NCBI RefSeq assembly: GCF_013364215.1
Contig: NZ_CP054923.1
Location: forward strand, 3,906,001 to 3,970,000
Direction: 5' to 3'
Origin: Verrucosispora sp. NA02020
GTDB lineage: Bacteria > Actinomycetota > Actinomycetes > Mycobacteriales > Micromonosporaceae
Length of the DNA stretch: 64,000 nt
In this document: one piece after another, positions 1,690 through 14,249 of the stretch
Layout: each line of letters opens with the position of its first letter
How positions within the stretch are numbered: position 1 is the first letter of the stretch
The notes under the pieces: generated by a model
What the model saw: the letters and a program-made list of their open reading frames with translations, nothing else
Database searches by the model: none
Told to the model about the DNA's origin: nothing
Program-made: the position numbers and the translations under genes

Positions 1690-4600
1690 TCAGGGGTGGG
1701 GGAAGCGGGAGCGGAGGAGGGTGCTGCCCTGGGTGGTGGCCAGGTGGGCGCCGGTGGTGAGTGCGGTGGGGTCGCGGCGGGCGATGCCACGGATGCGGAG
1801 CAGCTCCGGCGCGAGGACCGACTCGCCCAGGCGGTCCGCCACCGACAGGCCCTCGTCGGCCAGCTCCGCCGCCGTCGACGCGTCACCCGCCGCCAGGTAC
1901 GCCTCGGCCATCGCGCTGTACGTGACGGTGCGGGTGGCCCGCAGTCCGGGCCGGTAGATGCCCTCCGCAGCGGCCCGCATCGCCGGCAGCCGGTCGTGTT
2001 CGCCGCCCCGCGCCGCCGCCCACTCCAGGAAGAAGCCGCCTGTGGTCACGAAGTGCGGCATCCCGTTGGCGGCACCGATCTCGCGGCACCGGTGCGCCGC
2101 CGCGCGGACCGTCGCCACGTCCCGTTCCTGCATGCCCATCCAGGCCGCGAAGAGTGCCGCGTTCGCCCGCCCGTACGGGTCGGCGAGCCGCTCGGCCAAC
2201 CGCTCCGCCTCGGCGATGTCCCGCCGGGCGTCCTCGGCCGCCCCGCGCAACGAGCGGACCAGAGCCCGGAAGTTGTACGCGGCCAACACCGGCAGCCGGC
2301 CGACCTGGCGGCCCAGCAGATCCGGGTCGACCGAGCACAGCCGATCGACGGCGGCGGTGAGTCGCCGGTCGGCCTCGACCAGCGCGCCGGTGAAGTAGCC
2401 GACCACCCCGCGCAGGTACTCGCCGGCAGCGGCGATCAGCCCCGTGCCGTCGTCGGCCCGGACCAGCCGCTCGGCCAGCTCGACGCAGCCGGGGTAGTCG
2501 GCCTGGTTGGCGGCCAGCTCGCCCAGCGCCCACAACGCCGGGCGCACGTCGGTCTCCGGATCGACCAGAGCCAGCAACTCCCGGGCGCGGGCACAGACCT
2601 CGTCGACGGCGTCGGCACCGACGCCGACCGTCATCTGCAACAGGGCGGCCCGGTGCAACTGGACGGCGAGTTCGGTGGCCGCCGCCGACGGCGAGGTGCC
2701 CGCGAGCGGCGACAGGCGCCGGGCCGCCCGGTCCAGGTGCCCCAGCGCGTCCTCGTACGCGAACCGCCGCGTCGCGTCGTCGGCCGCCGCCAGCGACCAG
2801 CGCAGATGGTCCTCGCCGTGCCCGAGTCCGATCGCCTGCCCGAAGTGGTGGGCCAGCTCGGCCGGGGCCACACCGCCGACCCGCTGGTACGCCAGGGCCA
2901 GCCGGGCGTGCAGGGCGGCACGTCGTGGCGGCGGCACCTGCGCGTACGCCACCTCGGCGAAGAGCGGATGCCTGAACCGCACCGCGCCCGGCCCCGCCTC
3001 GGCGACCAGCGCCGCCGCGTACGCCGCCGTCAGCCCCTCGGCGATCCGCGTCGCCGACACCTCCAGGACCGTCGCCATCGTCTGCGTGTCCAGGTCGTGC
3101 CCGGCCACGCCGAGCAGCTCCAGGCAGTCGCGGGCCGCGTCGGGCAGGTCACCGAGACGTAGTCGGACGGTGTCCCGGACACTCGGCGGCAGGTCCGCGT
3201 CGGTCGGGTCGGTGCCGGCGCGCAGCAGCTCGGTGATGAAGAACGGGTTGCCTCCGGTCCGGGTGGCCAGGCGCGCCGCCACCTGCCGGTGCGGGGGCGT
3301 GCCGGTGCGTCGGCGGACCAGGGTGGCCACGTCGGTGTCGGTCAGCCCGGCCAGCCGCAGGTGACGGAAGTCCGCGCCACGAGCCAGGTCGGCCACCGTC
3401 GCCACCAGCGCCGGGTGGTGCTCGTAGGGGCGCATCGTCGCCAGCACGAGGACCCGGGTGTCGGCCACGGTCGTGGCGAGGAACCGCAACAACAGCAGCG
3501 AGTCCGGGTCGGCGGCGTGCAGGTCGTCCAGCACCACCAGCAGTCCGGCCGCTGCGGCGACCGTCTGGACCAGGTCCGCCACCGCCTCGTACGCGCGAAA
3601 CCGCGCAGTCGGGTCGGGTGCCGCGTCGCCGGTCGACCCCTGCGCCGGTCCGGCCGCGAAGCCGTCCAGTCGGCGCGCCGACCCGGTCGCGCCCGCCTGC
3701 GGCATCGCGGCGAGTGTCCGCACCACCTGGTTCCACAGCCAGAACGGCGGTGCCTGCCCGACGTCGGGGCAGCGACCCCACACCACCGGTACGCCCCGCG
3801 CCCCGGCGTGCGCGTCGAGCGCGGCGGCGAGCGTGGTCTTGCCGATTCCCGGCTCACCCACCACGACGGCGACCCGGCCACCACCGCCGGTCGCGTCCGT
3901 CAGCGCCGCCAGCAGCCCGGTCAGCTCGACGTCCCGGCCGACCAGGGAGTCCGTCAGCGTCGCCGGAGCCGGGCCGCCCCCGCCGGTCACCGGGTGAGCC
4001 GGTCCGGGCCGGTCGGCCGGAGCGGACATGGTCGGGTCGGTCCCCACGGTCACTGGGCGGTCCTGCGCGACATTGGTGACCGGCGTGGCCGTCGGCGGCG
4101 GCACGGACTGGGTCAGGATCCGGCCGTGCAGCCCGCGTAGCTCCGCGCCAGGGTCGATCCCGTACTCGCCGGCCAGCACCCGGCGGCCCTCGTCGAAGGC
4201 GGCCAGCGCCTCGGTCTGCCGTCCGGACCGGTAGAGCGCGAGCATCAACTGGGCGCGGGCGGTCTCGCGGACCGGGTTCGCGGCCACGAAGTGTCGCAAC
4301 TCGGCGAGTACGGCGCCATGGCGTCCCGCCGCCACCGCGGCGGTGAACCGTCCCTCCTCGGCACCGAGGCGTGCCTCGGTCAGGCGGGCGGCCTCGGGAC
4401 GCACCGCCGTCAGCTCGGCCGCACCGGTCAACGGCTCACCCCGCCAGAGTGCCAGTGCCTCGGTGTAGCCCCGTTCGGCCGAGACGGCGTCGCCCGCCGC
4501 GAGCGCCTGCCCCGCGTACGCCGCCAGACGGTGGAACCGGACCGCGTCGATCTCCTCCGGCTCGACGCGCAGCTCGTACCCTCTGGGGTGGCTGCGCAGG

Positions 4601-4854
4601 ATGCGGGCCGGCTCGCGGTGGCTGCGCTGGGGCTCGACCGCACGGCGTAGCCCGGCCACATAGGTCCGGAGCGTCATCTCGCCGCTGGCCGGCGGTCGGC
4701 CGTCCCAGAGCGCGTCGACCAGCCAGTCGGCGGCGACGAACCGGTTCGGGCGCAGCAGGAAGAGCGCGAGCAGCGCCCGCTGCTTCGGCCCTCCGAGCGG
4801 CACGGTGTGCCCGTCCCGGACGGCCTCCAGCGGTCCCAACATGCGGAACTGCAC
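1690..4854 (-). CDS. SARP/AfsR-type transcriptional regulator with BTAD and AAA ATPase domains
   Basis: Seen: about 1054 residues starting VQFRMLGPLEAVRDG, the usual opening of the OmpR-like winged helix of SARP proteins (residues ~1-95). A bacterial transcriptional activation domain follows (~100-250). An ATPase has Walker A GEPGIGKTT near residue 333 and Walker B LLVVLDDLHAADP near 440. The C-terminal half is rich in Ala/Leu helices of TPR type. No C-terminal LuxR helix-turn-helix is visible. I chose the GTG at 4854 because family members begin here; an in-frame upstream start at 4953 would add 33 unlikely residues. Known: such proteins activate secondary-metabolite or catabolic genes. Inference: cytoplasmic activator, divergent from the SRPBCC gene across about 130 bases. 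Confidence 0.85.
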   Translation of the reverse strand: MQFRMLGPLEAVRDGHTVPLGGPKQRALLALFLLRPNRFVAADWLVDALWDGRPPASGEMTLRTYVAGLRRAVEPQRSHREPARILRSHPRGYELRVEPEEIDAVRFHRLAAYAGQALAAGDAVSAERGYTEALALWRGEPLTGAAELTAVRPEAARLTEARLGAEEGRFTAAVAAGRHGAVLAELRHFVAANPVRETARAQLMLALYRSGRQTEALAAFDEGRRVLAGEYGIDPGAELRGLHGRILTQSVPPPTATPVTNVAQDRPVTVGTDPTMSAPADRPGPAHPVTGGGGPAPATLTDSLVGRDVELTGLLAALTDATGGGGRVAVVVGEPGIGKTTLAAALDAHAGARGVPVVWGRCPDVGQAPPFWLWNQVVRTLAAMPQAGATGSARRLDGFAAGPAQGSTGDAAPDPTARFRAYEAVADLVQTVAAAAGLLVVLDDLHAADPDSLLLLRFLATTVADTRVLVLATMRPYEHHPALVATVADLARGADFRHLRLAGLTDTDVATLVRRRTGTPPHRQVAARLATRTGGNPFFITELLRAGTDPTDADLPPSVRDTVRLRLGDLPDAARDCLELLGVAGHDLDTQTMATVLEVSATRIAEGLTAAYAAALVAEAGPGAVRFRHPLFAEVAYAQVPPPRRAALHARLALAYQRVGGVAPAELAHHFGQAIGLGHGEDHLRWSLAAADDATRRFAYEDALGHLDRAARRLSPLAGTSPSAAATELAVQLHRAALLQMTVGVGADAVDEVCARARELLALVDPETDVRPALWALGELAANQADYPGCVELAERLVRADDGTGLIAAAGEYLRGVVGYFTGALVEADRRLTAAVDRLCSVDPDLLGRQVGRLPVLAAYNFRALVRSLRGAAEDARRDIAEAERLAERLADPYGRANAALFAAWMGMQERDVATVRAAAHRCREIGAANGMPHFVTTGGFFLEWAAARGGEHDRLPAMRAAAEGIYRPGLRATRTVTYSAMAEAYLAAGDASTAAELADEGLSVADRLGESVLAPELLRIRGIARRDPTALTTGAHLATTQGSTLLRSRFPHP

Positions 4855-4984
4855 CTGACCACCACACTGTCCGGTCCCCACCCTGGCCGGGTCGAGTATG
4901 CCAGTCGTCCGCACCTCGACCGGTCCGTGCTTCCCGACCGGATCCTGCGCCACGGCAGCCGGTGAGGACGTGGCAGGATGAGGC

Positions 4985-5461
4985 GTGCCCGGTGATCGGA
5001 CAGCGTCGATTGCGTTCGAGACGGTCGGCGTCGTCGCGTCGTCGCCGGACGAGGTCTACCGCCACCTGACCGACCCGCACAGCTATGTCGGCCTGTCGCC
5101 GCTGATCGTGGCGGTCACGGACGTGCGCACCGGCCAGGACGCCGACGGCCGCCCGGTCACCGACTACGTCGCCGTCGAACGGTTCCGGATGGTCGGTCCG
5201 CTGCGCTGGGACAACCCCATCCGGGTACGGATGGTGGCGACCCGTCCCGGACGCCAGATCATCAGCGACGTGCGGAGCCCGGGGTGGGTCCGCCTGCGCG
5301 CGGTGGTCGACCTGACGCCCGAGGCCGGCGGTACGCGGATCCGGGAGTCGGTCACCGCCGACGCCCCACTGCCGCTACGGCGTTTCGTGGCGGGGCAGGC
5401 ACGTCGGGTCGCGGCGTACCGGGCGGCCGAGCTGGCCCGCCGCATGGCGTCCCGGCCCTGA
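4985..5461 (+). CDS. SRPBCC (START-like) family protein
   Basis: Seen: 158 residues with the helix-grip fold pattern. An amphipathic first strand (ASIAFETVGVVASSPDEVYRHLTDP) leads to alternating strands and a long C-terminal helix (RRFVAGQARRVAAYRAAELARRM). The GTG start follows a GGATGAGG ribosome site. Known: SRPBCC proteins bind hydrophobic small molecules; subgroups are polyketide cyclases or lipid-binding proteins. Inference: a small cytoplasmic ligand-binding protein. It faces the SARP gene and runs convergently into the STM4011 gene, 34 bases past its stop. No catalytic residues can be assigned. Confidence 0.75.
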   Translation: MPGDRTASIAFETVGVVASSPDEVYRHLTDPHSYVGLSPLIVAVTDVRTGQDADGRPVTDYVAVERFRMVGPLRWDNPIRVRMVATRPGRQIISDVRSPGWVRLRAVVDLTPEAGGTRIRESVTADAPLPLRRFVAGQARRVAAYRAAELARRMASRP

Positions 5462-5495: not shown

Positions 5496-6365
5496 TCAGA
5501 GCGCCCCGACCCGCCTTCCCGGCCAGCCTGCCGGAATGCGTTCCAGCACCCCGCCCGCGAAGACGTCCCGCAACCCCAACGGCTTGAGGTGGACGTAGCC
5601 GATGTGGCAGTCGCAGATCGCGTTGCTGCACGGCCGGGGCGTCAACGCGGCCCGCCAGGATCCGTCGTACAGGTTGCCGATCGGCGTGTCGATGAAGTGG
5701 CAGCGGCGGACCGTGCCGTCGCCGAGCACGGAGACGGCGGTCTCCCCGGCGTGGCAGGGCCGGTCCAGGGACACGTGCGGGCGCACGCTGTAGCCGAAGT
5801 GCGGGTCCACCTCCGTCCACGTCGCCTCCTCGGCGGCGTCGTAGCGCCGCCCCTCGGCGGCGTTGACCCAGAGGTAGACCTCGTCGGGCAGCAGGGCCCG
5901 CAGCGCCCGCGCCTCGGCCAGGTGCTCGGGTAGGCCGACCACCCCGACCGAGTACCGGACACCCAGCTCGGCCAGGCGGGCACACCGTCTCAGGAACCGC
6001 TCCCGGGTGACCTGCCCGGGATGGTACGTGGTCCAGAGCGCGGCGGCGCGCGGATCGGCGTCGGCGAGCCAGTCCACCCGGGCCGCCAGGTTGGTCTGGA
6101 TGACCACCCGCTCCACGTGCGGCAGATGGGACAGCGACACCATCGCGTCCCGGTACCAGCGTCGGGTCAGCCCCTCGCCCCAGGGCGTGAACAGCACCGA
6201 CAGCCGTACGTCGGTGGTCGCGGTCACCCAGTCGGTGAACCGCGCCAACGCCTCCCGATCGGCGCGGAGCAGCTCCGGCGGGTCCCGACGCTTGGCGAAG
6301 GGGCAGTACGGACAGTCGTAGTTGCAGCTCGCCAGCGGGCCACGGTAGAGGATCGCCAGGTTCAT
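5496..6365 (-). CDS. STM4011-family radical SAM protein
   Basis: Seen: 289 residues. The radical-SAM cluster motif CX3CX2C is near the N-terminus (C14, C18, C21, in CNYDCPYC). Further cysteines occur late in the protein: RPCHAG, RRCHF and CSNAICDCH. These could hold an auxiliary Fe-S cluster of twitch/SPASM type. The start overlaps the previous gene by ATGA, so translation is coupled. Known: STM4011 is a family of unknown function named after a Salmonella locus, found beside STM4012-STM4015. Inference: a cytoplasmic enzyme cleaving S-adenosylmethionine to start a radical reaction on an unknown substrate. It is the last gene of a six-gene minus-strand operon. Confidence 0.88.
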   Translation of the reverse strand: MNLAILYRGPLASCNYDCPYCPFAKRRDPPELLRADREALARFTDWVTATTDVRLSVLFTPWGEGLTRRWYRDAMVSLSHLPHVERVVIQTNLAARVDWLADADPRAAALWTTYHPGQVTRERFLRRCARLAELGVRYSVGVVGLPEHLAEARALRALLPDEVYLWVNAAEGRRYDAAEEATWTEVDPHFGYSVRPHVSLDRPCHAGETAVSVLGDGTVRRCHFIDTPIGNLYDGSWRAALTPRPCSNAICDCHIGYVHLKPLGLRDVFAGGVLERIPAGWPGRRVGAL

Positions 6366-7690
6366 CGCGGCACGTACCCGGCCATCGCGTGCTGCACCTC
6401 GGCGGAGGTCAACCAGGGGCCGACGGCGTCCGACCGGGCCAGGCCCGAGGGGGTGAGCCAGAGCCCGCCGTCGGTGGCCCAGCCCCGCTCGACCAGCCGG
6501 TCGAGCTGCGGGAAGTCCTCGCCCGGCAGGCGACCGAACCGGGCCAGGTAGGCGTCCGGGTCGACCCCGTCGACCCGCAGCAGCGACTTCAGCAGCCACC
6601 GACGGCGCTGCTCGGTGCCGTCGAGGTGGTACCCGAACTCGGCGTACCGGAAGTCGTCGGCCGGTCGGGCCAGGTAGTCGTCGAGCACCGCACGCACCTG
6701 CGAGACGCTCACCGCGTAGTCGAAGGAGTAGTGCAACGCGGTGGTGTACGAGCGGGCACCGCAGCCCAGGCCGACCATCCCGTCGTCCTGGCAGCAGTAG
6801 TCGGGGCCGTCCGGAGCCGGCACGTCGGCCCGACGGAACTGGCGCATTGACTCCTGCCGGTAGCCGGCCGCGCCGAGCGTCTCCACGGCCTGCCGGTAGA
6901 GCGCGAGGCGCTGCGCGTCCCAGTCCGCGCGGGCGTGCGTGCGTCGGCCCAGCCCGGTGAGCGGCCGGACGTAGAGCGGGTAGAGGTACAACTCCTCGGG
7001 ACGCCACGCCAGCGCCGCGTCGAGGCTCTCCCGCCAGGTGTCGGCCGTCTGCCCGTCGATGCCGTAGATCAGGTCGATGTTGAGCACCGGGACGCGGGCG
7101 TCGCGGATCGCCGCCAGCGCCGCCTCCACCTCCTCGCGCCGCTGCGGTCGACCGGCGGCACGGGCCTCGACGTCGAGGAAGCTCTGCACCCCGATGCTGA
7201 CCCGGGTGGTGCCGAACGCGGCCAGCACCGCGAGCCGGTCCGGCGTCGCGGTGGCCGGCGAGGTCTCCACCGACAGCGGTACGCCGGGCAGCCGCGCCCC
7301 GAGGATCGTGGTGGCGATGCCGAACAGCTCGGTCAGCTCGTCGGCGGTCAGATAGGTGGGGGTCCCGCCGCCGAAGGCCGCACGGGCGTACCCGGTCGAG
7401 CCGCCGAGCGCCTCGGCGGTCTGCTCGGCCTGCCGACGAAGCTGCCGCAGGTAGGCGGTGACCTGCTCGGCGGGCGCGTTGGCCCGGGTGAACAGGTTGC
7501 AGAACCCGCAGCGCATCTCGCAGAACGGCACGTGCAGATAGAGGAAGAGGGCGTCGCGTGCCTGTTCCCGCCACACGTCGGTCAACGACGGACGGGGGCG
7601 CAACGCGCGGTACGAGGTCTTGTGCGGGTAGGCGTAGAGGTACTGCTGGTACGGCGAACCGTCCAGGCCCACGTCGGTGCTGGTCACCAT
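6362..7690 (-). CDS. STM4012-family radical SAM protein (HemN/HemW-like)
   Basis: Seen: 442 residues with LHVPFCEMRCGFC holding the 4Fe-4S cysteines C57, C61 and C64. A HemW-like barrel follows, with GGGTPTYL, a VSIGVQSF motif and NIDLIYGIDGQT, then a C-terminal wing. ATG at 7690 lies inside the end of the upstream gene (7-base overlap, ATGGTGA); the stop overlaps the next start by ATGA. Known: related to oxygen-independent coproporphyrinogen oxidase-like proteins, but STM4012 members have no assigned function and should not be called HemN. Inference: acts with the other radical-SAM enzyme and the ATP-grasp protein on one substrate. Confidence 0.9.
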   Translation of the reverse strand: MVTSTDVGLDGSPYQQYLYAYPHKTSYRALRPRPSLTDVWREQARDALFLYLHVPFCEMRCGFCNLFTRANAPAEQVTAYLRQLRRQAEQTAEALGGSTGYARAAFGGGTPTYLTADELTELFGIATTILGARLPGVPLSVETSPATATPDRLAVLAAFGTTRVSIGVQSFLDVEARAAGRPQRREEVEAALAAIRDARVPVLNIDLIYGIDGQTADTWRESLDAALAWRPEELYLYPLYVRPLTGLGRRTHARADWDAQRLALYRQAVETLGAAGYRQESMRQFRRADVPAPDGPDYCCQDDGMVGLGCGARSYTTALHYSFDYAVSVSQVRAVLDDYLARPADDFRYAEFGYHLDGTEQRRRWLLKSLLRVDGVDPDAYLARFGRLPGEDFPQLDRLVERGWATDGGLWLTPSGLARSDAVGPWLTSAEVQHAMAGYVPR

Positions 7691-8487
7691 TCTCCAGGGT
7701 GCAGGGTGAAGTGCGCGTACGGGACGGTCCACACCACGTCGTGGCCGAACCGGTGGCCGGTGTGCCCGTCCTCGCCGTACGCGGTGCCGTGGTCGGAGCA
7801 GATGATCGTGAAAACCGGCCGCCCTCGGCCGCTGACCAGGCCGAACAGCCGCTCCATCCGGCCGTCCACGTACTCCAGGGCGGCGGCGTGGCTGGACAGG
7901 TCGTCGTCCTGCGCGCCGGGCAGGTGGTGCCGGTTCGGCTGGTGCAGGGCGGCCACGTTGAGGAAGGTGAACAGCGGCCGGGTCGGCGGCACGTCGGCCA
8001 CCACCGCCGCCAGCCGGTCGAGTTGGGCGTCCACGCAGGTGGGCGACGTGACGCCGAACTCCGGCTCCCAGTGCGCCTCGCGGAACAACCCCGGCAGGAC
8101 CGCCCCGAGCGGGCTCCGCAGGTTGAAGAAGCCGACGCCGCCCAGGCAGAGTGTGTGGTAGCCGACGTCGGCGAGGGCGGTCGGCAGGTCCGGGGCGTCG
8201 AACACCCACGTGTCGGCACCGGAGGTCTCGCTGCCCGGGAAGGCCGCCGCGTACAGCCGTTCGTGTCGACCCGGGGGCACCGGCGTGGGCAGGAACCCGG
8301 CGAAGAAGGCGTGGTGCGCGGCGTAGGTGAAGCTGGCCGGGGAGTGCCGGCGTTCCCACCGGCCGCCCGGCAGCGCCCGCGTCAGGTGCGGTGTCCGGCC
8401 CGCCGCCGCCAGCTCGGACGCCACGTCGTAGCGCAGCGTGTCGAGGGTGACCAGCAGCAGGTCGTGGCTTCCGATCAGGCTCCGCAC
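7684..8487 (-). CDS. STM4013/SEN3800-family hydrolase (alkaline phosphatase/sulfatase fold)
   Basis: Seen: 267 residues. The metal-binding first strand is LLLVTLDTLRYD (D16). SPASFTYAAHHAFFAG offers T54 as nucleophile, and a second metal site is ICSDHGTAYGEDGHTGH. There is no CxPSR formylglycine motif, so it is not a classical sulfatase. I chose GTG 8487 because a strong GGAGGTGG lies 4 bases upstream; an upstream ATG at 8532 would lie deep inside the preceding gene. It overlaps STM4014 by 13 bases. No signal peptide, so it is probably cytoplasmic. Inference: a phospho- or sulfo-transfer/hydrolysis step in the same pathway as its neighbours. Confidence 0.85.
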   Translation of the reverse strand: MRSLIGSHDLLLVTLDTLRYDVASELAAAGRTPHLTRALPGGRWERRHSPASFTYAAHHAFFAGFLPTPVPPGRHERLYAAAFPGSETSGADTWVFDAPDLPTALADVGYHTLCLGGVGFFNLRSPLGAVLPGLFREAHWEPEFGVTSPTCVDAQLDRLAAVVADVPPTRPLFTFLNVAALHQPNRHHLPGAQDDDLSSHAAALEYVDGRMERLFGLVSGRGRPVFTIICSDHGTAYGEDGHTGHRFGHDVVWTVPYAHFTLHPGEW

Positions 8488-9569
8488 CCGACCACCTCCG
8501 GCGGGACCGTGCGTGTCTGCCCGGGACGCCATCCGCCCTCGGTCAGGGCGTGCACCTGGGCGGCGTAGCTGTCCCGCCCGTCGACCAGCACCCCGGGCAG
8601 CAGGTCACCGAAGGCGTTGACCTCGGCCACCGCGTGCCGCCGCCATCCCAGCAGGAACATCAGGTCCACGCCGACGTGCAGCGAGTCGGGGAAGCAGGCG
8701 GCGACCCGCTCGCACGTCTCCATCGCCGCCGACCACTGCCGGGCACCGGCCGCCCGCCGCACCTCGTCGAGATCACCGCGTGCGTTGCCGAGATGCAGGT
8801 TGGTCAGCGGCCCCCGCGCCGACCGCACCACCACCTGGTGTGGTCGACCGGCGATCACCAGCACCCGCAGGTCGACCACCCGGTCACCGATCCCGGTCTT
8901 GGGCAGCCACCGCTCCACGTGCAGACCCTCCGGCGCGAGCCGGTCGACGATGGCGGCGACCTCCGCCTCGTCGGTGTAGCGGCGCAGCCGCAACGAGTTG
9001 AACAGCGCCTCGGGCGTGTGCTCGATCGTGGTCACCGCCTGCACCCGACCGGTGCCGACCGCCAACGCGATGACCCCGGCGGCCGAGGAGCCGTGCGCCG
9101 GCTTGACGAACACCCGACCCCAACCGGCCTGCGCCATCGCCGACCGCAGCTCGGCGTAGCCGCCGACCTGCGGCAGCGCGTCCGGCACCGGCACACCGGC
9201 CGCCGCCAGGCGCGCGTGGCAGCGCCGCTTGTCACAGAGCACGGCGACGTCCTCCGGCGGGTTGAGCAGGGTCGCGCCACCGGCGGCCACCCGGGCCATG
9301 CCGTCCACCAGACCGGCGTACGCGTCGGCGAGGCCGACCAGTTCGCCGTGCCGGGCGACGGTGGCCGACCGGCGCAGCAACCGGTCGACCCGGGCGTCCT
9401 CCCCGGGCGAGTCCACCCGCACGAGCGTGCCGGCCGGTGGCGGTGCCGCCCCGGTCAGCACGTCGCACCAGGGCAGCACCTCGGGGCGGGGCAGGCCGGC
9501 GGCCAGCACCGCGTCGCTGAACATCGACACCCGACGGTTGCCGGGATTACCGACCACGGTCAACCGCAT
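8475..9569 (-). CDS. STM4014-family ATP-grasp-like protein
   Basis: Seen: 364 residues with ATP-grasp hallmarks. DKRRCHARLAAAGVPVPD opens the central domain, the lysine strand is VFVKPAHGSSAAGV, RVLVIAGRPHQVVVR follows, and VGVDLMF...AVAEVNAFGDLLPG supplies the acidic and Asn metal ligands. The N-terminus is a Rossmann-like pre-ATP domain. Known: ATP-grasp enzymes join a carboxylate to an amine or thiol through an acyl phosphate; STM4014 itself is uncharacterised. The start lies 1 base after the stop of the LRR gene. Inference: the ligase of this cluster. RimK-like similarity is by motif only. Confidence 0.85.
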   Translation of the reverse strand: MRLTVVGNPGNRRVSMFSDAVLAAGLPRPEVLPWCDVLTGAAPPPAGTLVRVDSPGEDARVDRLLRRSATVARHGELVGLADAYAGLVDGMARVAAGGATLLNPPEDVAVLCDKRRCHARLAAAGVPVPDALPQVGGYAELRSAMAQAGWGRVFVKPAHGSSAAGVIALAVGTGRVQAVTTIEHTPEALFNSLRLRRYTDEAEVAAIVDRLAPEGLHVERWLPKTGIGDRVVDLRVLVIAGRPHQVVVRSARGPLTNLHLGNARGDLDEVRRAAGARQWSAAMETCERVAACFPDSLHVGVDLMFLLGWRRHAVAEVNAFGDLLPGVLVDGRDSYAAQVHALTEGGWRPGQTRTVPPEVVGCGA

Positions 9570-9570
9570 G

Positions 9571-10518
9571 TCACTCCGCCACCGCGACGTAGCGGTAGCT
9601 CTCGCCGTCGTCCTCCTCCGCCTCCTGCACGTCGGAGATGTCCACCCGGACGTCCGGCAGAGCGGCTATCACGGAACCGGCGACCTCCTCGGAGAGGTAG
9701 TGGTGGTGCAGGTCCAGCACCGTCAGGTGGGTCAGGGGCTGACCGGCGAGCAGCGCCGCCGCCCCCTCGTCGCTCAGCGTGCCGTTGGACAGGTCCAGCA
9801 CCTCCAGGCGGCGCACCACGGGCGCGGTCGCCAGGGCCTTCGCGACGTCGTCGGTGATCATCGCGTTGCACAGACCCAGCCGGCGCAGCGCCGGAAAGAG
9901 CTCGCCGGCCAGAAGCGGGGCGAGGTCCCCCATCTCGGTGGTGCCGCCGTAGTCGTCGGTGCCGAGCCACAGTTCGAGGTCGGCCAGCTCGGGCAGGTCG
10001 GAGTCGAGCACGGCGCCGACGAACTCGCGGGACAGCCCGCCGCTCTGCACCACCAACTCGCGCAGGTTGGCGTGCTGGACGGGGGAGAAGTCGAACTCCT
10101 CGCCGCCGCGTACCCAGAGCACCTCCAACTCCGGGTACGCGGTCAGCAGCGGACTGACGTCACCGACCTTCATCCAGGAGACCTCGCACTCCTCGAAGGT
10201 CATGTCCCCGAGGAACAGGGCCCGCAGGGCTGGCAGTCGATCGGCTGCCGCGCAGATCTGTGCGATCGGCGCGGGGTTGAAGGCCGCGTACCCCCAGGCG
10301 CCGATGACCAGCGACTCCACCGTCTCGCCGAGCTGCGCGACGAACCGCTCGAAGGTGGCGGCGAACTCCTCGGAGAGCGCGTCTTCCTGGTCGTCGTCGA
10401 ACTCCGGACGGGTGACGCGCCACGAGACCGGGCCGGTCACGGTCGGCAGCGGCCCCTCCAGCGGAAACTCGACCACCGGACGGTCGGCGAACTCAGCGAG
10501 GTGCGAAGAGAACGTCAT
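9571..10518 (-). CDS. STM4015-family leucine-rich-repeat protein (second copy)
   Basis: Seen: 315 residues without signal peptide or membrane segment. The middle and C-terminal parts show ribonuclease-inhibitor-like repeats (LADLELWLG, LRRLGLCNA, LEVLDLSNG, LTVLDLHHHYLSEE). An acidic linker then leads to a tail ending YRYVAVAE. It is a paralogue of the gene just upstream. Six bases separate them, so they are co-translated or nearly so. Known: STM4015 is an uncharacterised family found with STM4011-4014. Inference: a protein scaffold or a modification substrate for the radical-SAM and ATP-grasp enzymes. Confidence 0.82.
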   Translation of the reverse strand: MTFSSHLAEFADRPVVEFPLEGPLPTVTGPVSWRVTRPEFDDDQEDALSEEFAATFERFVAQLGETVESLVIGAWGYAAFNPAPIAQICAAADRLPALRALFLGDMTFEECEVSWMKVGDVSPLLTAYPELEVLWVRGGEEFDFSPVQHANLRELVVQSGGLSREFVGAVLDSDLPELADLELWLGTDDYGGTTEMGDLAPLLAGELFPALRRLGLCNAMITDDVAKALATAPVVRRLEVLDLSNGTLSDEGAAALLAGQPLTHLTVLDLHHHYLSEEVAGSVIAALPDVRVDISDVQEAEEDDGESYRYVAVAE

Positions 10519-10524
10519 GCCCGA

Positions 10525-11463
10525 TCACTCCCCGACCGCGGTGAAGCGGTAGGTCCGGCCGCTGTACACGTCCGGGGTCCGCCCCTCGGACACGTCCACG
10601 CGCACGCCGGGCAGGGCCGCCACGGCACGTTGCTGTGCCTGCTCGGACAGATAGTGGTGGTGCAGGTCGAGCTCGGCCAGGTGGGTCAGCGACTGCCCGG
10701 CCAGGAGCGCCGCGAGCCCGTCGTCGGTGAGGTTGCCCATCGACAGGTCGAGCACCGAGAGCCGGGGCACCACCGGTGCGGTGGCGACCGCCCCGGCGAC
10801 CACGTCGGCGATGTCGGCGTTGCGCAGGCCGAGCCGTCGCAGTGCCGGCAGTCCGGCGCCGGCGAGCAGCGGGGCGAGGTCGTCGACGGTCGCGTCCCCG
10901 CCGTAGTCCGATCGACCCAGCCACATCTCCAGCAGCTCCAGATTCGGCAGGTCGCACTCACCGACCGCCCGCACCACCGTGCCGGGCAGGCCACCGGACT
11001 CGAACCGCAGCTCCCGCAGGCCGACGTGGCGAATGGCGTCGAGCCGCAGGCCCTCGCCGCCGCGCACCCACAGCGTCTCCAGCTGCGGGTAGGCCGTGAG
11101 CAGTGCGGTGATGTCGTCATGGGTCAGCCAGGAGAGCTCGCACTGCTCGGAGACCAGGTCGGCGAGGAAGATCGCCCGGAGCCCGGTCCACTGCGACGCC
11201 GCGTTCACCAGGAGGTCGACCGGAAGCGGCCGTTCGTACGCCATGCCCCACTCGCCGATCACGACGGCGCGGACCGAATCGGCCGGAACCTCCTTGAGCA
11301 TCGCCTCGACCAGCGCGACGAACTCCTCGGGCTCCGGCTCGTCGTCGAGATCCCCCACCTCGAGCCGCCAGGCCACCGCCGACGGATCGGCCGGCACCTC
11401 CATCCCCGGCGTGAACGGGATCACCGGAAGACCGGCGAACGACGACGCGTGCGTTCTGAACAC
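10525..11463 (-). CDS. STM4015-family leucine-rich-repeat protein (first copy)
   Basis: Seen: 312 residues, same architecture as its downstream neighbour. Shared blocks are LLTAYPxLExLWVRGGE, LWLGxxDYGG, LAPLLAG, LDLHHHYLSE and a tail YRFTAVGE. The copies differ enough that the duplication is not recent. The start GTG 11463 has GGAGG 7 bases upstream. It is the first gene of the six-gene operon; its promoter must lie in the 102 bases between the start and the terminator at 11566. Inference: same role as the second copy, possibly a heterodimer partner. Confidence 0.82.
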   Translation of the reverse strand: MFRTHASSFAGLPVIPFTPGMEVPADPSAVAWRLEVGDLDDEPEPEEFVALVEAMLKEVPADSVRAVVIGEWGMAYERPLPVDLLVNAASQWTGLRAIFLADLVSEQCELSWLTHDDITALLTAYPQLETLWVRGGEGLRLDAIRHVGLRELRFESGGLPGTVVRAVGECDLPNLELLEMWLGRSDYGGDATVDDLAPLLAGAGLPALRRLGLRNADIADVVAGAVATAPVVPRLSVLDLSMGNLTDDGLAALLAGQSLTHLAELDLHHHYLSEQAQQRAVAALPGVRVDVSEGRTPDVYSGRTYRFTAVGE

Positions 11464-11621: not shown

Positions 11622-13295
11622 TCAGCTCGTCCGCACCGACCCGTTGACCTTGGTGTCACGGATGGTCGCGCCGACGGCGTTCACCGAACCGTTGACCCGG
11701 CTCTCCACGATCGAGACCACCGAGGCGTTGTGCGCGTGGATCGCGCCGTTCAGGTTCGAGTTGAACACGATCAGACCGGCACCCGGGTTGACCTTGATGG
11801 CGCCGTTCTGGGTGACCCCGTCCATGCAGGTGATGCCGGAGGAGATGGTCATGCTGCCGTTGTGCCGACCGCGCAGGACGGTGGTGCACTCCGGGTAGCT
11901 GGGCTGGGTCTGCACGTTCAGCTCGTCGAAGGCCACGACCGCGCGGGCGTTGTTCGTCAGCGGGTCGTCCAGCTTGAGGACGTCGAGTCCCTTCTGGATG
12001 TCGTTGGAGTAGATGTAACCGTTGTGGTAATACGTCGACCAGGATCCGCCGAGGATCCGGCGGGTGTCCGACAGCGGGCCCCGCTCCCAGAAGGCGATCT
12101 CGACCGGGTTGGCCGAGTCGGTGAAGTCGATGACCGAGATGCCGCCCTGGTACCACGCCTGGACCATGATGTCGCGGCCCATCGCCGGGATCAGCGAGCC
12201 GTTGTGCGCCACGCAGTTCTCGAGGGCGCTGTTCTCCCTCGGGATCTTGAAGTAGCTCTTGAAGACCAGTCGACGGTCGGCGCCGGAGCCGACGATGTCG
12301 TACAGCGCGTTCGCACCCTGGTTGGCCCGGTAGGCCGGGGTGCAGATGGCGCCGCTGCCGCCGCCGAGCTCGTCGGTGAAGACGACCTTGGTGCCGGCGT
12401 TGTTGAACGTGGCCGAGTGCCAGAACGCGAAGTTGGTGTCGCGCACCTGGCTCAGGACCACCGGGTTCACCGGGTCGGAGATGTCCATCAGGACGCCGTC
12501 ACCCATGCAGGCGCCGGCGGCCAGGTCCAGGTCCGGGTAGGCGGTGATGTCGTGGCAGCCGCTGGTGTTGGTGTTGCCGCCGTCCGGGAAGAGGACCGGG
12601 GTGGCGACCACGGAGGCGCTGGTGGGGTTCGCCAGCGGCACGTCGATGATGGAGATCTTGTCGTGCGGCGGCTTGCAGTAGAACGCGTTGTTCGACGGGC
12701 TGTACGACTGGACGTACACGTAGACGCTCGTGTCGTCCTTGCTCGGCACCAGCGTCAGGGTGTGCGAACCGCAGTCGGTGCGGACCGACTTGATGTAGCG
12801 CGGGTTCGCCTTGTCGCTGATGTCGAAGATCCGGACGCCTTCCCAGGCGCTCTCCTGGGCCACCGAACCGGCGCTGCTGCTGCACGAGTCGTCGCTGCGG
12901 GGCGAGTCGACCGCAAGGAACAGCAGGTTCCCGTAGACCGACGGGTCACCCTGCGCTCCGACGCAGACGACCTGGCTGACCACCTGCGGTGAGGCCGGGT
13001 TGCTGACGTCGAAGATGCTGAACCCGTTGTAGTTGCCGGCGATGACGTGGTTGTCCTGGAACGCCAGGTCCGAGTTGTACGCGGCCTCGCTGGCGAACCC
13101 GCCGAACTTCGGGACGTTGGCGATCTGGGTGAGGTTGGGGCTGCTGACGATCTCGTCGACGGCCGGGATGGTGTTCGCGGCGGTCTCGGCGGCGCTGCTC
13201 GACGGCGCCACCGCGACACCCGCGACGAGAAGGGCACCTGTGGCGGCCAGGCTGATCGCCAGCCTCCGGTTCCCTCGTGGGGTCGGTTTGAACAT
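11622..13295 (-). CDS. Secreted LVIVD-repeat protein with a repetitive beta-solenoid-like tail
   Basis: Seen: 557 residues. A Sec signal peptide has RR near the start and a hydrophobic core ALLVAGVAVA, cleaving near SSSAAE (~residue 35). The main part holds LVIVD-type strands (NGFSIFDVSNPASPQVV, VRIFDISDKANPRY, LMDISDPVNPVVL, ISVIDFTDSANPVEI) that probably form a beta-propeller. From about residue 473 the sequence turns into short Asn/Gly-rich repeats (NGSMTI, NGAIKV, NGAIHA, NGSVNA, NGSVRT), as in a right-handed beta helix. Known: LVIVD repeats occur in secreted actinobacterial proteins of unclear function. Inference: extracellular, monocistronic, ended by the hairpin at 11566-11596. Confidence 0.8.
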   Translation of the reverse strand: MFKPTPRGNRRLAISLAATGALLVAGVAVAPSSSAAETAANTIPAVDEIVSSPNLTQIANVPKFGGFASEAAYNSDLAFQDNHVIAGNYNGFSIFDVSNPASPQVVSQVVCVGAQGDPSVYGNLLFLAVDSPRSDDSCSSSAGSVAQESAWEGVRIFDISDKANPRYIKSVRTDCGSHTLTLVPSKDDTSVYVYVQSYSPSNNAFYCKPPHDKISIIDVPLANPTSASVVATPVLFPDGGNTNTSGCHDITAYPDLDLAAGACMGDGVLMDISDPVNPVVLSQVRDTNFAFWHSATFNNAGTKVVFTDELGGGSGAICTPAYRANQGANALYDIVGSGADRRLVFKSYFKIPRENSALENCVAHNGSLIPAMGRDIMVQAWYQGGISVIDFTDSANPVEIAFWERGPLSDTRRILGGSWSTYYHNGYIYSNDIQKGLDVLKLDDPLTNNARAVVAFDELNVQTQPSYPECTTVLRGRHNGSMTISSGITCMDGVTQNGAIKVNPGAGLIVFNSNLNGAIHAHNASVVSIVESRVNGSVNAVGATIRDTKVNGSVRTS

Positions 13296-13346: not shown

Positions 13347-13520
13347 TGGTGGTGCTCGATCGTCGGCCATGTGGTCACGGTTTAGCAACACGACCGCCGA
13401 TGTCTCGACGCAAACTGGCGCAGGTGGGGCTAAACGATCGTTCTGTCGATCGTGGGCCTCCCGTCGCAGCTCAGGCCCGCGCTACCATCCCGGCCAACGG
13501 TGAACGGCGGGAGTCGAGTT

Positions 13521-14249
13521 GTGCTAGGTGTGCGGATTCGTGGGCTGCTGCGACAGTCCCGCAAGCTTGTGCTGATCGAGTTGGCCGTACTCGCGGTGCT
13601 GGCCGTCGGGATCGCGGTGGCGGTGTCGTGGCCGGACAGTGGGCCCGCGCCGACGGCGCAGACGAACGAGCCCGCGCCGCTCGACCTGCCCGGCATCCCG
13701 GACGCCACCGCTCCGGTGCTGATGCCGGGCGGACCCGGTGAACCGGCGAAGACCCTGGCGGCGAACGAGATGTCACCGATGGCCCGGCCGCCGCACAACA
13801 ACGCCGACACCCGCTTCGTCACGATGATGATCCCGCACCACGAGCAGGCCCTGGTGATGGCCAAACTGGTCGGTGACCGGGCCGAGAACCCGAACTTGAA
13901 GATCATCGCGGACCGGATCCTGGCCGCTCAAGACCCGGAGATCAAGACCCTGGAGAGCTGGTTGACCGACCGTGGCCTGGACCGCAACTCGGGCGACGGG
14001 CACCGGCACGAGATGGCCGGCATGCAGACGGCGGATGCGCTGAACCGCCTGACCGCGGCCCGGGGCGCCGACTTCGACCGGATGTTCGTGGCGATGATGA
14101 CCGACCATCACCAGGGCGCCATCGCGATGGCGAACGAGGTCCTCACACTCGGCACCGACATCATCATCAACGAGTTCGCCAGCGGCGTCGTCGTCGAACA
14201 GGGCGTCGAGATCAACCGGATGCGCGAGGTGTTGACCGGCAGCCGGTAG
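13521..14249 (+). CDS. DUF305 family protein, membrane-anchored or secreted
   Basis: Seen: 242 residues. One N-terminal membrane segment (LVLIELAVLAVLAVGIAVAVSW) is followed by a Pro/Ala-rich linker. A ferritin-like helical domain carries two HH motifs (MMIPHHEQALVMAK and MMTDHHQGAIAMANE) and an HRHEM stretch. GTG 13521 is chosen because GGCGGGAG lies about 8 bases upstream and the membrane segment then starts near residue 13. Known: DUF305 proteins are extracytoplasmic helical bundles, often linked to metal resistance or oxidation loci. Inference: faces outward and may bind metal through His/Met. Divergent from the LVIVD gene. Confidence 0.85.
   Translation: MLGVRIRGLLRQSRKLVLIELAVLAVLAVGIAVAVSWPDSGPAPTAQTNEPAPLDLPGIPDATAPVLMPGGPGEPAKTLAANEMSPMARPPHNNADTRFVTMMIPHHEQALVMAKLVGDRAENPNLKIIADRILAAQDPEIKTLESWLTDRGLDRNSGDGHRHEMAGMQTADALNRLTAARGADFDRMFVAMMTDHHQGAIAMANEVLTLGTDIIINEFASGVVVEQGVEINRMREVLTGSR

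Follow-up and report, generated by a model that had tools for sequence, protein, structure and literature searches.

An invariant C-terminal glutamate on the leucine-rich-repeat proteins of the STM4011-STM4015 operon, a candidate substrate for the operon's own ATP-grasp ligase

The window analysed here is a stretch of 64,000 nucleotides of Verrucosispora sp. NA02020 (contig NZ_CP054923.1, positions 3,906,001 to 3,970,000). Its minus strand carries, between positions 5496 and 11463, a packed six-gene operon encoding STM4011, STM4012, STM4013, STM4014 and two STM4015 proteins. The genes are the following, with scores and curated bit cut-offs taken from the NCBIfam profile models (aa, amino acids; SAM, S-adenosylmethionine; LRR, leucine-rich repeat):

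5496-6365, minus: STM4011, 289 aa, radical SAM enzyme with a C-terminal twitch/SPASM-like region (NF038073, 399.3 bits, cut-off 200)
6362-7690, minus: STM4012, 442 aa, HemN-like radical SAM enzyme (NF006067, 613.5 bits, cut-off 380)
7684-8487, minus: STM4013, 267 aa, alkaline-phosphatase-fold hydrolase, GTG start (NF038075, 395 bits, cut-off 250)
8475-9569, minus: STM4014, 364 aa, ATP-grasp ligase of the LysX/ArgX/RimK type (424 bits, cut-off 175)
9571-10518, minus: STM4015b, 315 aa, LRR protein (NF038076, 352.3 bits, cut-off 275)
10525-11463, minus: STM4015a, 312 aa, LRR protein, GTG start (NF038076, 344.4 bits, cut-off 275)

Membership of the STM4011-STM4015 operon was taken to mean that all proteins exceed their family cut-offs and that the genes are collinear; both hold for the six genes of the window. 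A first-pass annotation, made from the sequence alone, had assigned the same families and described the same packed frames, and it is borne out on both counts. STM4011 and STM4012 overlap by 4 bases, STM4012 and STM4013 (GTG start) by 7; the overlap between STM4013 and STM4014 is 13 with the GTG start and 58 with an in-frame ATG start at 8532. Gaps of 1 and 6 bases separate STM4014 from STM4015b and STM4015b from STM4015a. A protein of Micromonospora sp. NPDC047793 shares 98% identity with STM4015b.

A scan of the genome_contigs collection with STM4011 returned at least 458 relatives, the best 80 loci of which were compared as a sample and not a census. Of these, 51 belong to Paenibacillaceae (L044-L094) and the remainder mostly to Streptomyces and Nocardia, together with Undibacterium, three metagenome-assembled genomes (Acaryochloris, Blastocatellia, Armatimonadetes) and an unclassified bacterium. 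The order 4015(-4015)-4014-4013-4012-4011 is kept on one strand in 76 of the 80 loci, and the layout is therefore not due to chance. Irregularities take several forms: STM4012 is split across two frames at L101 (plain order kept), STM4014 and STM4015 lie on the opposite strand at L121, facing the remaining genes, L099 is cut by the contig start, and at L095 STM4013 is partial with no match to STM4014 or STM4015 in the preceding 3.7 kb. Plasmid records of Streptomyces, Methylobacterium, Deinococcus, Paenibacillus and Salmonella display the identical gene order; in the Salmonella record, typA and glnA also adjoin the operon, and a megablast of this operon against the ecoli_genomes collection gave no near match. 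Overall, relatives occur in at least seven bacterial phyla.

Within the family of the host, STM4015 and STM4011 travel together. Among 121 genomes, STM4015 exceeds its cut-off in 51 and STM4011 in 50, both being present in 50, STM4015 only in one and neither in 70 (Fisher p 1.6e-33, a value that ignores shared ancestry). The sole exception, G472, harbors a decayed operon (L161) in which STM4013 is whole, STM4015 is kept, STM4012 and STM4014 are remnants and STM4011 was not found. As in the window, 12 of the 51 STM4015-positive genomes have at least two STM4015 over cut-off. Given that 50 of these 121 genomes, 39 of 151 of the same genus (STM4011 over cut-off) and 6 of 396 across the phylum (STM4014 over cut-off) are positive, the operon is accessory.

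The STM4015 proteins share a free C-terminus of the form R-[YF]-x-[AS]-[VIL]-x-E-COOH, preceded by an acidic linker, a feature that the first-pass annotation overlooked. It was followed in the best 120 of 2395 STM4015 homologues plus 151 locus matches, i.e., 271 proteins of which 258 are distinct, although a few of the latter may be one gene with differently trimmed starts; the unlinked relatives L155-L157, discussed below, stand outside this count. The final residue is Glu in 258/258, with no C-terminal extension in any of them. Counting back from this Glu (-1), position -2 is Ser, Gly, Thr or Ala in 257 (Ser or Thr in 173), -3 is Val, Leu or Ile in 255, -4 is Ala or Ser in 241, -6 is Tyr or Phe in 251, and -7 is Arg in 249. 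Asp and Glu make up 44% of the 16 residues before the heptad, as compared to 17% of the whole protein, and the last LRR mark lies 35-47 residues from the C-terminus in 257 sequences and 62 residues from it in one. At the last residue, the information content is 4.32 bits in STM4015 vs 0.84 in STM4014, 1.46 in STM4013, 1.54 in STM4012 and 1.51 in STM4011. In the window, the tails are encoded as follows:

9571-9594, minus: STM4015b tail codons R-Y-V-A-V-A-E plus stop, protein ending in YRYVAVAE (genome-pattern match)
10525-10548, minus: STM4015a tail codons R-F-T-A-V-G-E plus stop, protein ending in YRFTAVGE (genome-pattern match)

These two genes are the only matches to R-[YF]-x-A-[VL]-x-E-stop in their own genome of 7.28 Mb, the reversed control giving none; no other tail-bearing substrate was found there with this pattern, which divergent tails would escape. 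The Salmonella and Bacteroides proteins end in YMNAMYTE and WYYPMITE, respectively, with a divergent middle and the Glu kept. At the loci read that possess two LRR paralogues, the window included, the tail is present in both. Four STM4015 relatives scoring above 90 bits and lying away from the operon were also fetched from the same-family scan, weaker ones being left out. L155 (43% identical, aligned to residue 301) has another end, without the tail; L156 (partial, aligned 8-171) and L157 (aligned 94-281) also lack it, and L159 retains it. This loss fits a tail that would be needed only together with the enzymes, in a small sample where two of the three tail-less proteins are partial.

The candidate enzyme for this tail is STM4014. 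Its best structural matches are ArgX, LysX and RimK, and its best PDB sequence match is LysX. PsnB with its precursor peptide also stands high among its Foldseek neighbours, a ranking that does not by itself indicate the reaction. Judged on sequence and structure, STM4014 resembles ligases acting on a protein C-terminal Glu. Among these, LysX and ArgX act on LysW, and RimK glutamylates the C-terminus of S6, a ribosomal protein rather than a dedicated partner, without the involvement of radical enzymes. The closest parallel is offered by the LysW/LysX and ArgW/ArgX amino-group carrier protein (AmCP) pathways, whose ATP-grasp ligases STM4014 resembles as a putative member of the LysX/ArgX clade. 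In these pathways, the carrier receives the amine at the gamma-carboxyl of its C-terminal Glu. According to two papers, AmCP carriers combine a globular domain, a charged C-terminal extension and a C-terminal Glu (PMC9303977, PMC10433800). Likewise, STM4015 ends in Glu behind an acidic linker, and the genes of candidate carrier and ligase are adjacent. The differences lie in the carrier candidate, an LRR protein of ~315 aa instead of a small zinc protein ending in EDWGE (Trp is found at position -3 in none of the 258 sequences), and in the enzymes that accompany it: where the AmCP pathways have later enzymes of lysine or arginine synthesis, the operon has a pair of radical SAM proteins and an alkaline-phosphatase-fold hydrolase. 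A second parallel comes from the Pearlin pathways (3-thiaglutamate), in which a residue is amide-linked to an encoded carrier peptide and then altered, a radical SAM methyltransferase being included (PMC9303977). The carriers there are short peptides, in contrast to the LRR protein considered here. Pearlins use aminoacyl-tRNA-dependent ligases instead of an ATP-grasp enzyme.

Of the two radical enzymes, STM4011 displays the strict pattern SC[ND]YxCxYCPF in 96 of 99 sequences, and Cx4CxC followed by His, Tyr or Phe in all 99. Besides its Cx3Cx2C motif, five more cysteines are invariant in a nine-row alignment (C208, C226, C250, C255 and C257 of the first row). A cluster motif followed by C-terminal auxiliary-cluster cysteines is the pattern of SPASM/twitch enzymes, and STM4011 displays it, cluster binding being putative. 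The C-terminal part of STM4011 matches the sactisynthase SkfB (E 3e-4), whose twitch region likewise harbors five conserved cysteines (PMC6231123). The scored match lies in the C-terminal region: STM4011 is 289 aa long vs 412 residues for the SkfB chain, and the tail heptads of the two STM4015 proteins of the window contain no Cys. STM4012 scores 72.8 bits against PF04055 and 20.1 bits against HemN_C, under the cut-off of 24; beyond its own family, HutW, HemW and HemN come closest, each scoring far under its cut-off. Its Cx3Cx2C motif is found in 98/98 sequences aligned from near the N-terminus. To note, on a Rhizobium tropici plasmid (L043:7950-10267), a radical SAM gene resembling STM4012 is accompanied by a class I methyltransferase gene near cbb3 oxidase genes, which is a different use of the STM4012 family.

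STM4013 exceeds the cut-off of the Pfam Sulfatase fold model PF00884 (29.9 bits vs 25). Sulfatases carry a Cys or Ser within [CS]xPxR for formylglycine. This pattern occurs in only 1 of 97 STM4013 sequences, whereas a Thr-containing motif and D-H-G are each found in 97/97, and L-D-[TS]-L-R-x-D in 95; an invariant Thr occupies the presumed nucleophile position. The sulfatase reading was therefore rejected, and the "sulfo" half of the phospho/sulfo-transfer proposed at first pass is not supported; from knowledge of the superfamily, we take STM4013 to be a Thr-nucleophile phosphohydrolase or phosphotransferase. Elsewhere, a Streptomyces albidoflavus plasmid (L041:7726-9889) associates STM4013-like, NUDIX and lasso-peptide-B2-like genes, other operon genes not being annotated in view.

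Four observations, i.e., the families, the conservation of the tail, the co-occurrence of the genes, and the kinship of STM4014 in sequence and structure, are the basis of a model in which the operon would form a self-sufficient unit for the chemical modification of its own LRR proteins at their C-terminal tail, STM4014 forming an amide at the Glu. STM4015 would consist of a folded LRR domain, serving as carrier and docking platform, an acidic linker and the invariant Glu. STM4014 would activate this Glu and join to it, as an amide, the amino group of an amino acid or another amine. The radical enzymes, STM4011 (twitch-type) and STM4012 (HemN-type), would then alter the attached group or the neighbouring Arg-Tyr-x-x-Val residues, and STM4013 would likewise work on the attached group or the tail as a phosphohydrolase or phosphotransferase. 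The product may remain attached as a prosthetic group of the protein or be released. We infer the tail as substrate, the ligation, the order of the steps, the attached molecule and the fate of the product, and regard the model as evenly poised between right and wrong. It narrows the peptide- or protein-modifying or small-molecule pathway suggested at first pass, with which it agrees, by means of the LysX/ArgX/RimK-type ligase, the Glu tail and the twitch/SPASM-like STM4011. A more ambitious form, in which the LRR protein would represent a new amide-tethering carrier architecture (an amine loaded by the ligase at Glu, remodelled by radical SAM chemistry while tethered, then finished or freed by the phosphohydrolase), is put forward tentatively, as less likely than not.

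Several results weigh against this model. In the AlphaFold2 model of STM4015b (mean predicted local distance difference test, pLDDT, 96.5), the linker takes the form of two short strands, and the tail is folded onto the LRR domain, the last five residues having a mean pLDDT of 92. The structural match 2ra8, a structural genomics entry from Bacteroides fragilis (Q64V53), aligns its chain residues 7-356 with model residues 8-314, so the end of this homologue is probably visible in the crystal. Its N-terminus is ~50 residues longer (chain residue 75 corresponds to profile position 26), an extension that is presumably WGR-like; the searchable literature mentions neither 2RA8 nor Q64V53. Taken together, the confident model and this alignment indicate that the tail is probably docked on the LRR domain in the resting state, which is the chief reason why confidence in its modification stays where it does; a docked tail might nonetheless serve as substrate by swinging out. 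Furthermore, two proteins encoded near the operon at other loci also have fixed ends, a ~100-aa protein (Asp, 31/31) and DUF6745 (Thr or Ala, 32/32), and because of this the invariance of the tail alone is not proof of chemistry. The ordered tail (pLDDT 92), the reach of the 2ra8 alignment out to the tail region and these fixed ends would also be explained if the conserved end were a structural cap, an intramolecular ligand of the LRR or an enzyme-docking peptide, with the LRR protein as scaffold or regulator and the enzymes making a free small molecule. We consider this unlikely, if a serious contender: the lack of any extension or last-residue change in 258 sequences seems, in our judgement, unusual for a cap, the ligase type of STM4014 matches a C-terminal Glu as acceptor, and both LRR paralogues keep the tail at the two-paralogue loci read.

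Alternatively, the operon might resemble those of ribosomally synthesised and post-translationally modified peptides (RiPPs): the radical enzymes would cross-link or alter the Arg-Tyr-x-Ala-Val of the tail, STM4014 would close an internal amide or ester bond in the manner of graspetides, whose side-chain rings are formed by ATP-grasp enzymes, and the short peptide would be cut off. The likeness of the twitch-type STM4011 to SkfB, the Foldseek rank of PsnB with its precursor peptide and the near-invariance of the tail Arg and Tyr/Phe speak for such a scheme, but the six genes include neither a protease nor an exporter, and no ring partner is strictly conserved, Ser or Thr at position -2 being present in just 173/258. 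Moreover, instead of a short cleavable leader-core peptide, the sole candidate substrate is a protein of ~315 aa predicted to be folded, and a folded 315-aa "leader" would be very unusual; we find this scheme improbable. An anti-phage or stress defence cassette appears far less plausible still. Patchy distribution (39/151 same-genus genomes for STM4011), plasmid occurrence, and the presence at three plasmid loci (L035, L037, L124) of HipA- or RES-type toxin-antitoxin genes no more than ~9 kb away would suit it, but such annotated genes are not in view at the other operon-bearing plasmid loci, and PADLOC returned for the six proteins a single weak match, of STM4012 to PDC-M51A (25 bits).

The first-pass annotation had also remarked that the operon includes no transporter or regulator. 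This is true of the six genes here, while at other loci additional genes adjoin the operon, among which only hand-checked ones are considered, since shadow frames of the core genes crowded out the results when neighbours recurring across groups were sought. The ~100-aa protein, which carries GEVTGHxH/HEEH motifs and may be a metal-binding partner, is paired with DUF6745: the 32 loci that have one of them close to the operon also have the other (L033-L038, 22 of L096-L122, L158, L160, L165 and L168). A strong DUF6745 subtype (>290 bits) is present in 28 of the 121 same-family genomes, all 28 operon-positive, and in 22 of the 27 cases where both are on one contig it lies at most 3 kb from STM4011; taken as a whole, the DUF6745 family exceeds its cut-off in 58 of the 121, operon-negative genomes included. 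The same family search, positive in relatives, gave no DUF6745 match in the genome of the window, and nothing on DUF6745 was found in the searchable literature. A HAD-IIB phosphatase follows STM4011 in Salmonella and is fused to it in Bacteroides finegoldii (L124:9932-11890), where the operon is interrupted at the junction of STM4013 and STM4012, one of these genes being represented by its start only and the other by its end only; a HAD hydrolase follows STM4011 in one same-family relative (L163). In 18 of the 51 Paenibacillaceae loci (L057, L068-L070, L073-L076, L080-L086 and L091-L093), the gene directly downstream of STM4011 is adenosine 5'-phosphosulfate (APS)-kinase-like, two cases being confirmed by Pfam and NCBIfam. 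Together, the HAD and APS-kinase-like neighbours are suggestive of phosphorylated intermediates. A Streptomyces locus (L098) has a frame similar to APS kinase ~7 kb away, and in S. cadmiisoli TauE/SafE follows STM4011. A sulfur-metabolite theme was nevertheless kept as a lead only and not adopted, since none of the other loci of that comparison showed an APS kinase gene immediately after STM4011.

In the window itself, the operon is flanked by three genes:

1690-4953, minus: AfsR/SARP-like regulator with BTAD and AAA domains, downstream on the same strand
4985-5461, plus: polyketide-cyclase-like protein
11622-13295, minus: LVIVD/choice-of-anchor-B-like protein

All three are absent from the annotated genes of the operon-bearing plasmid loci, the only loci searched for them. 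Further on, positions 13452-14249 encode a DUF305/CopM-like protein of the metallochaperone type.

As far as can be searched, these families are known by their Salmonella locus names only, as stated at first pass. The locus names occur in two open-access papers: STM4015 is listed once, in a table on positive selection (PMC2784778), and STM4013 once, in a table of RpoN sites (PMC3844500). No function of the STM4011-STM4015 operon was found in the open-access literature, subscription papers being mostly outside the search, and nothing on the combination of radical SAM, ATP-grasp, leucine-rich repeat and C-terminal was found in the searchable literature. The operon is real, widespread and uncharacterised, its families being already catalogued by NCBIfam under locus-tag names without a reaction; the first-pass annotation was right on the genes and the class of pathway. 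What is new is a testable mechanism, held with middling confidence, in which a LysX/RimK-type ligase would act at the invariant C-terminal Glu of an LRR protein and radical enzymes would act afterwards. With the tail and the type of ligase, what was a catalogue of domains yields a single precise prediction: STM4015 should be covalently altered at its final residue. If it is right, LRR proteins would be added to the few amide-tethering carriers known so far, and the operon would point to a novel cofactor or metabolite common to gut, soil and plant bacteria; should the carrier architecture also be true, this novel metabolite or protein-bound cofactor would be made by bacteria of at least seven phyla, Salmonella, Bacteroides and Micromonospora among them.

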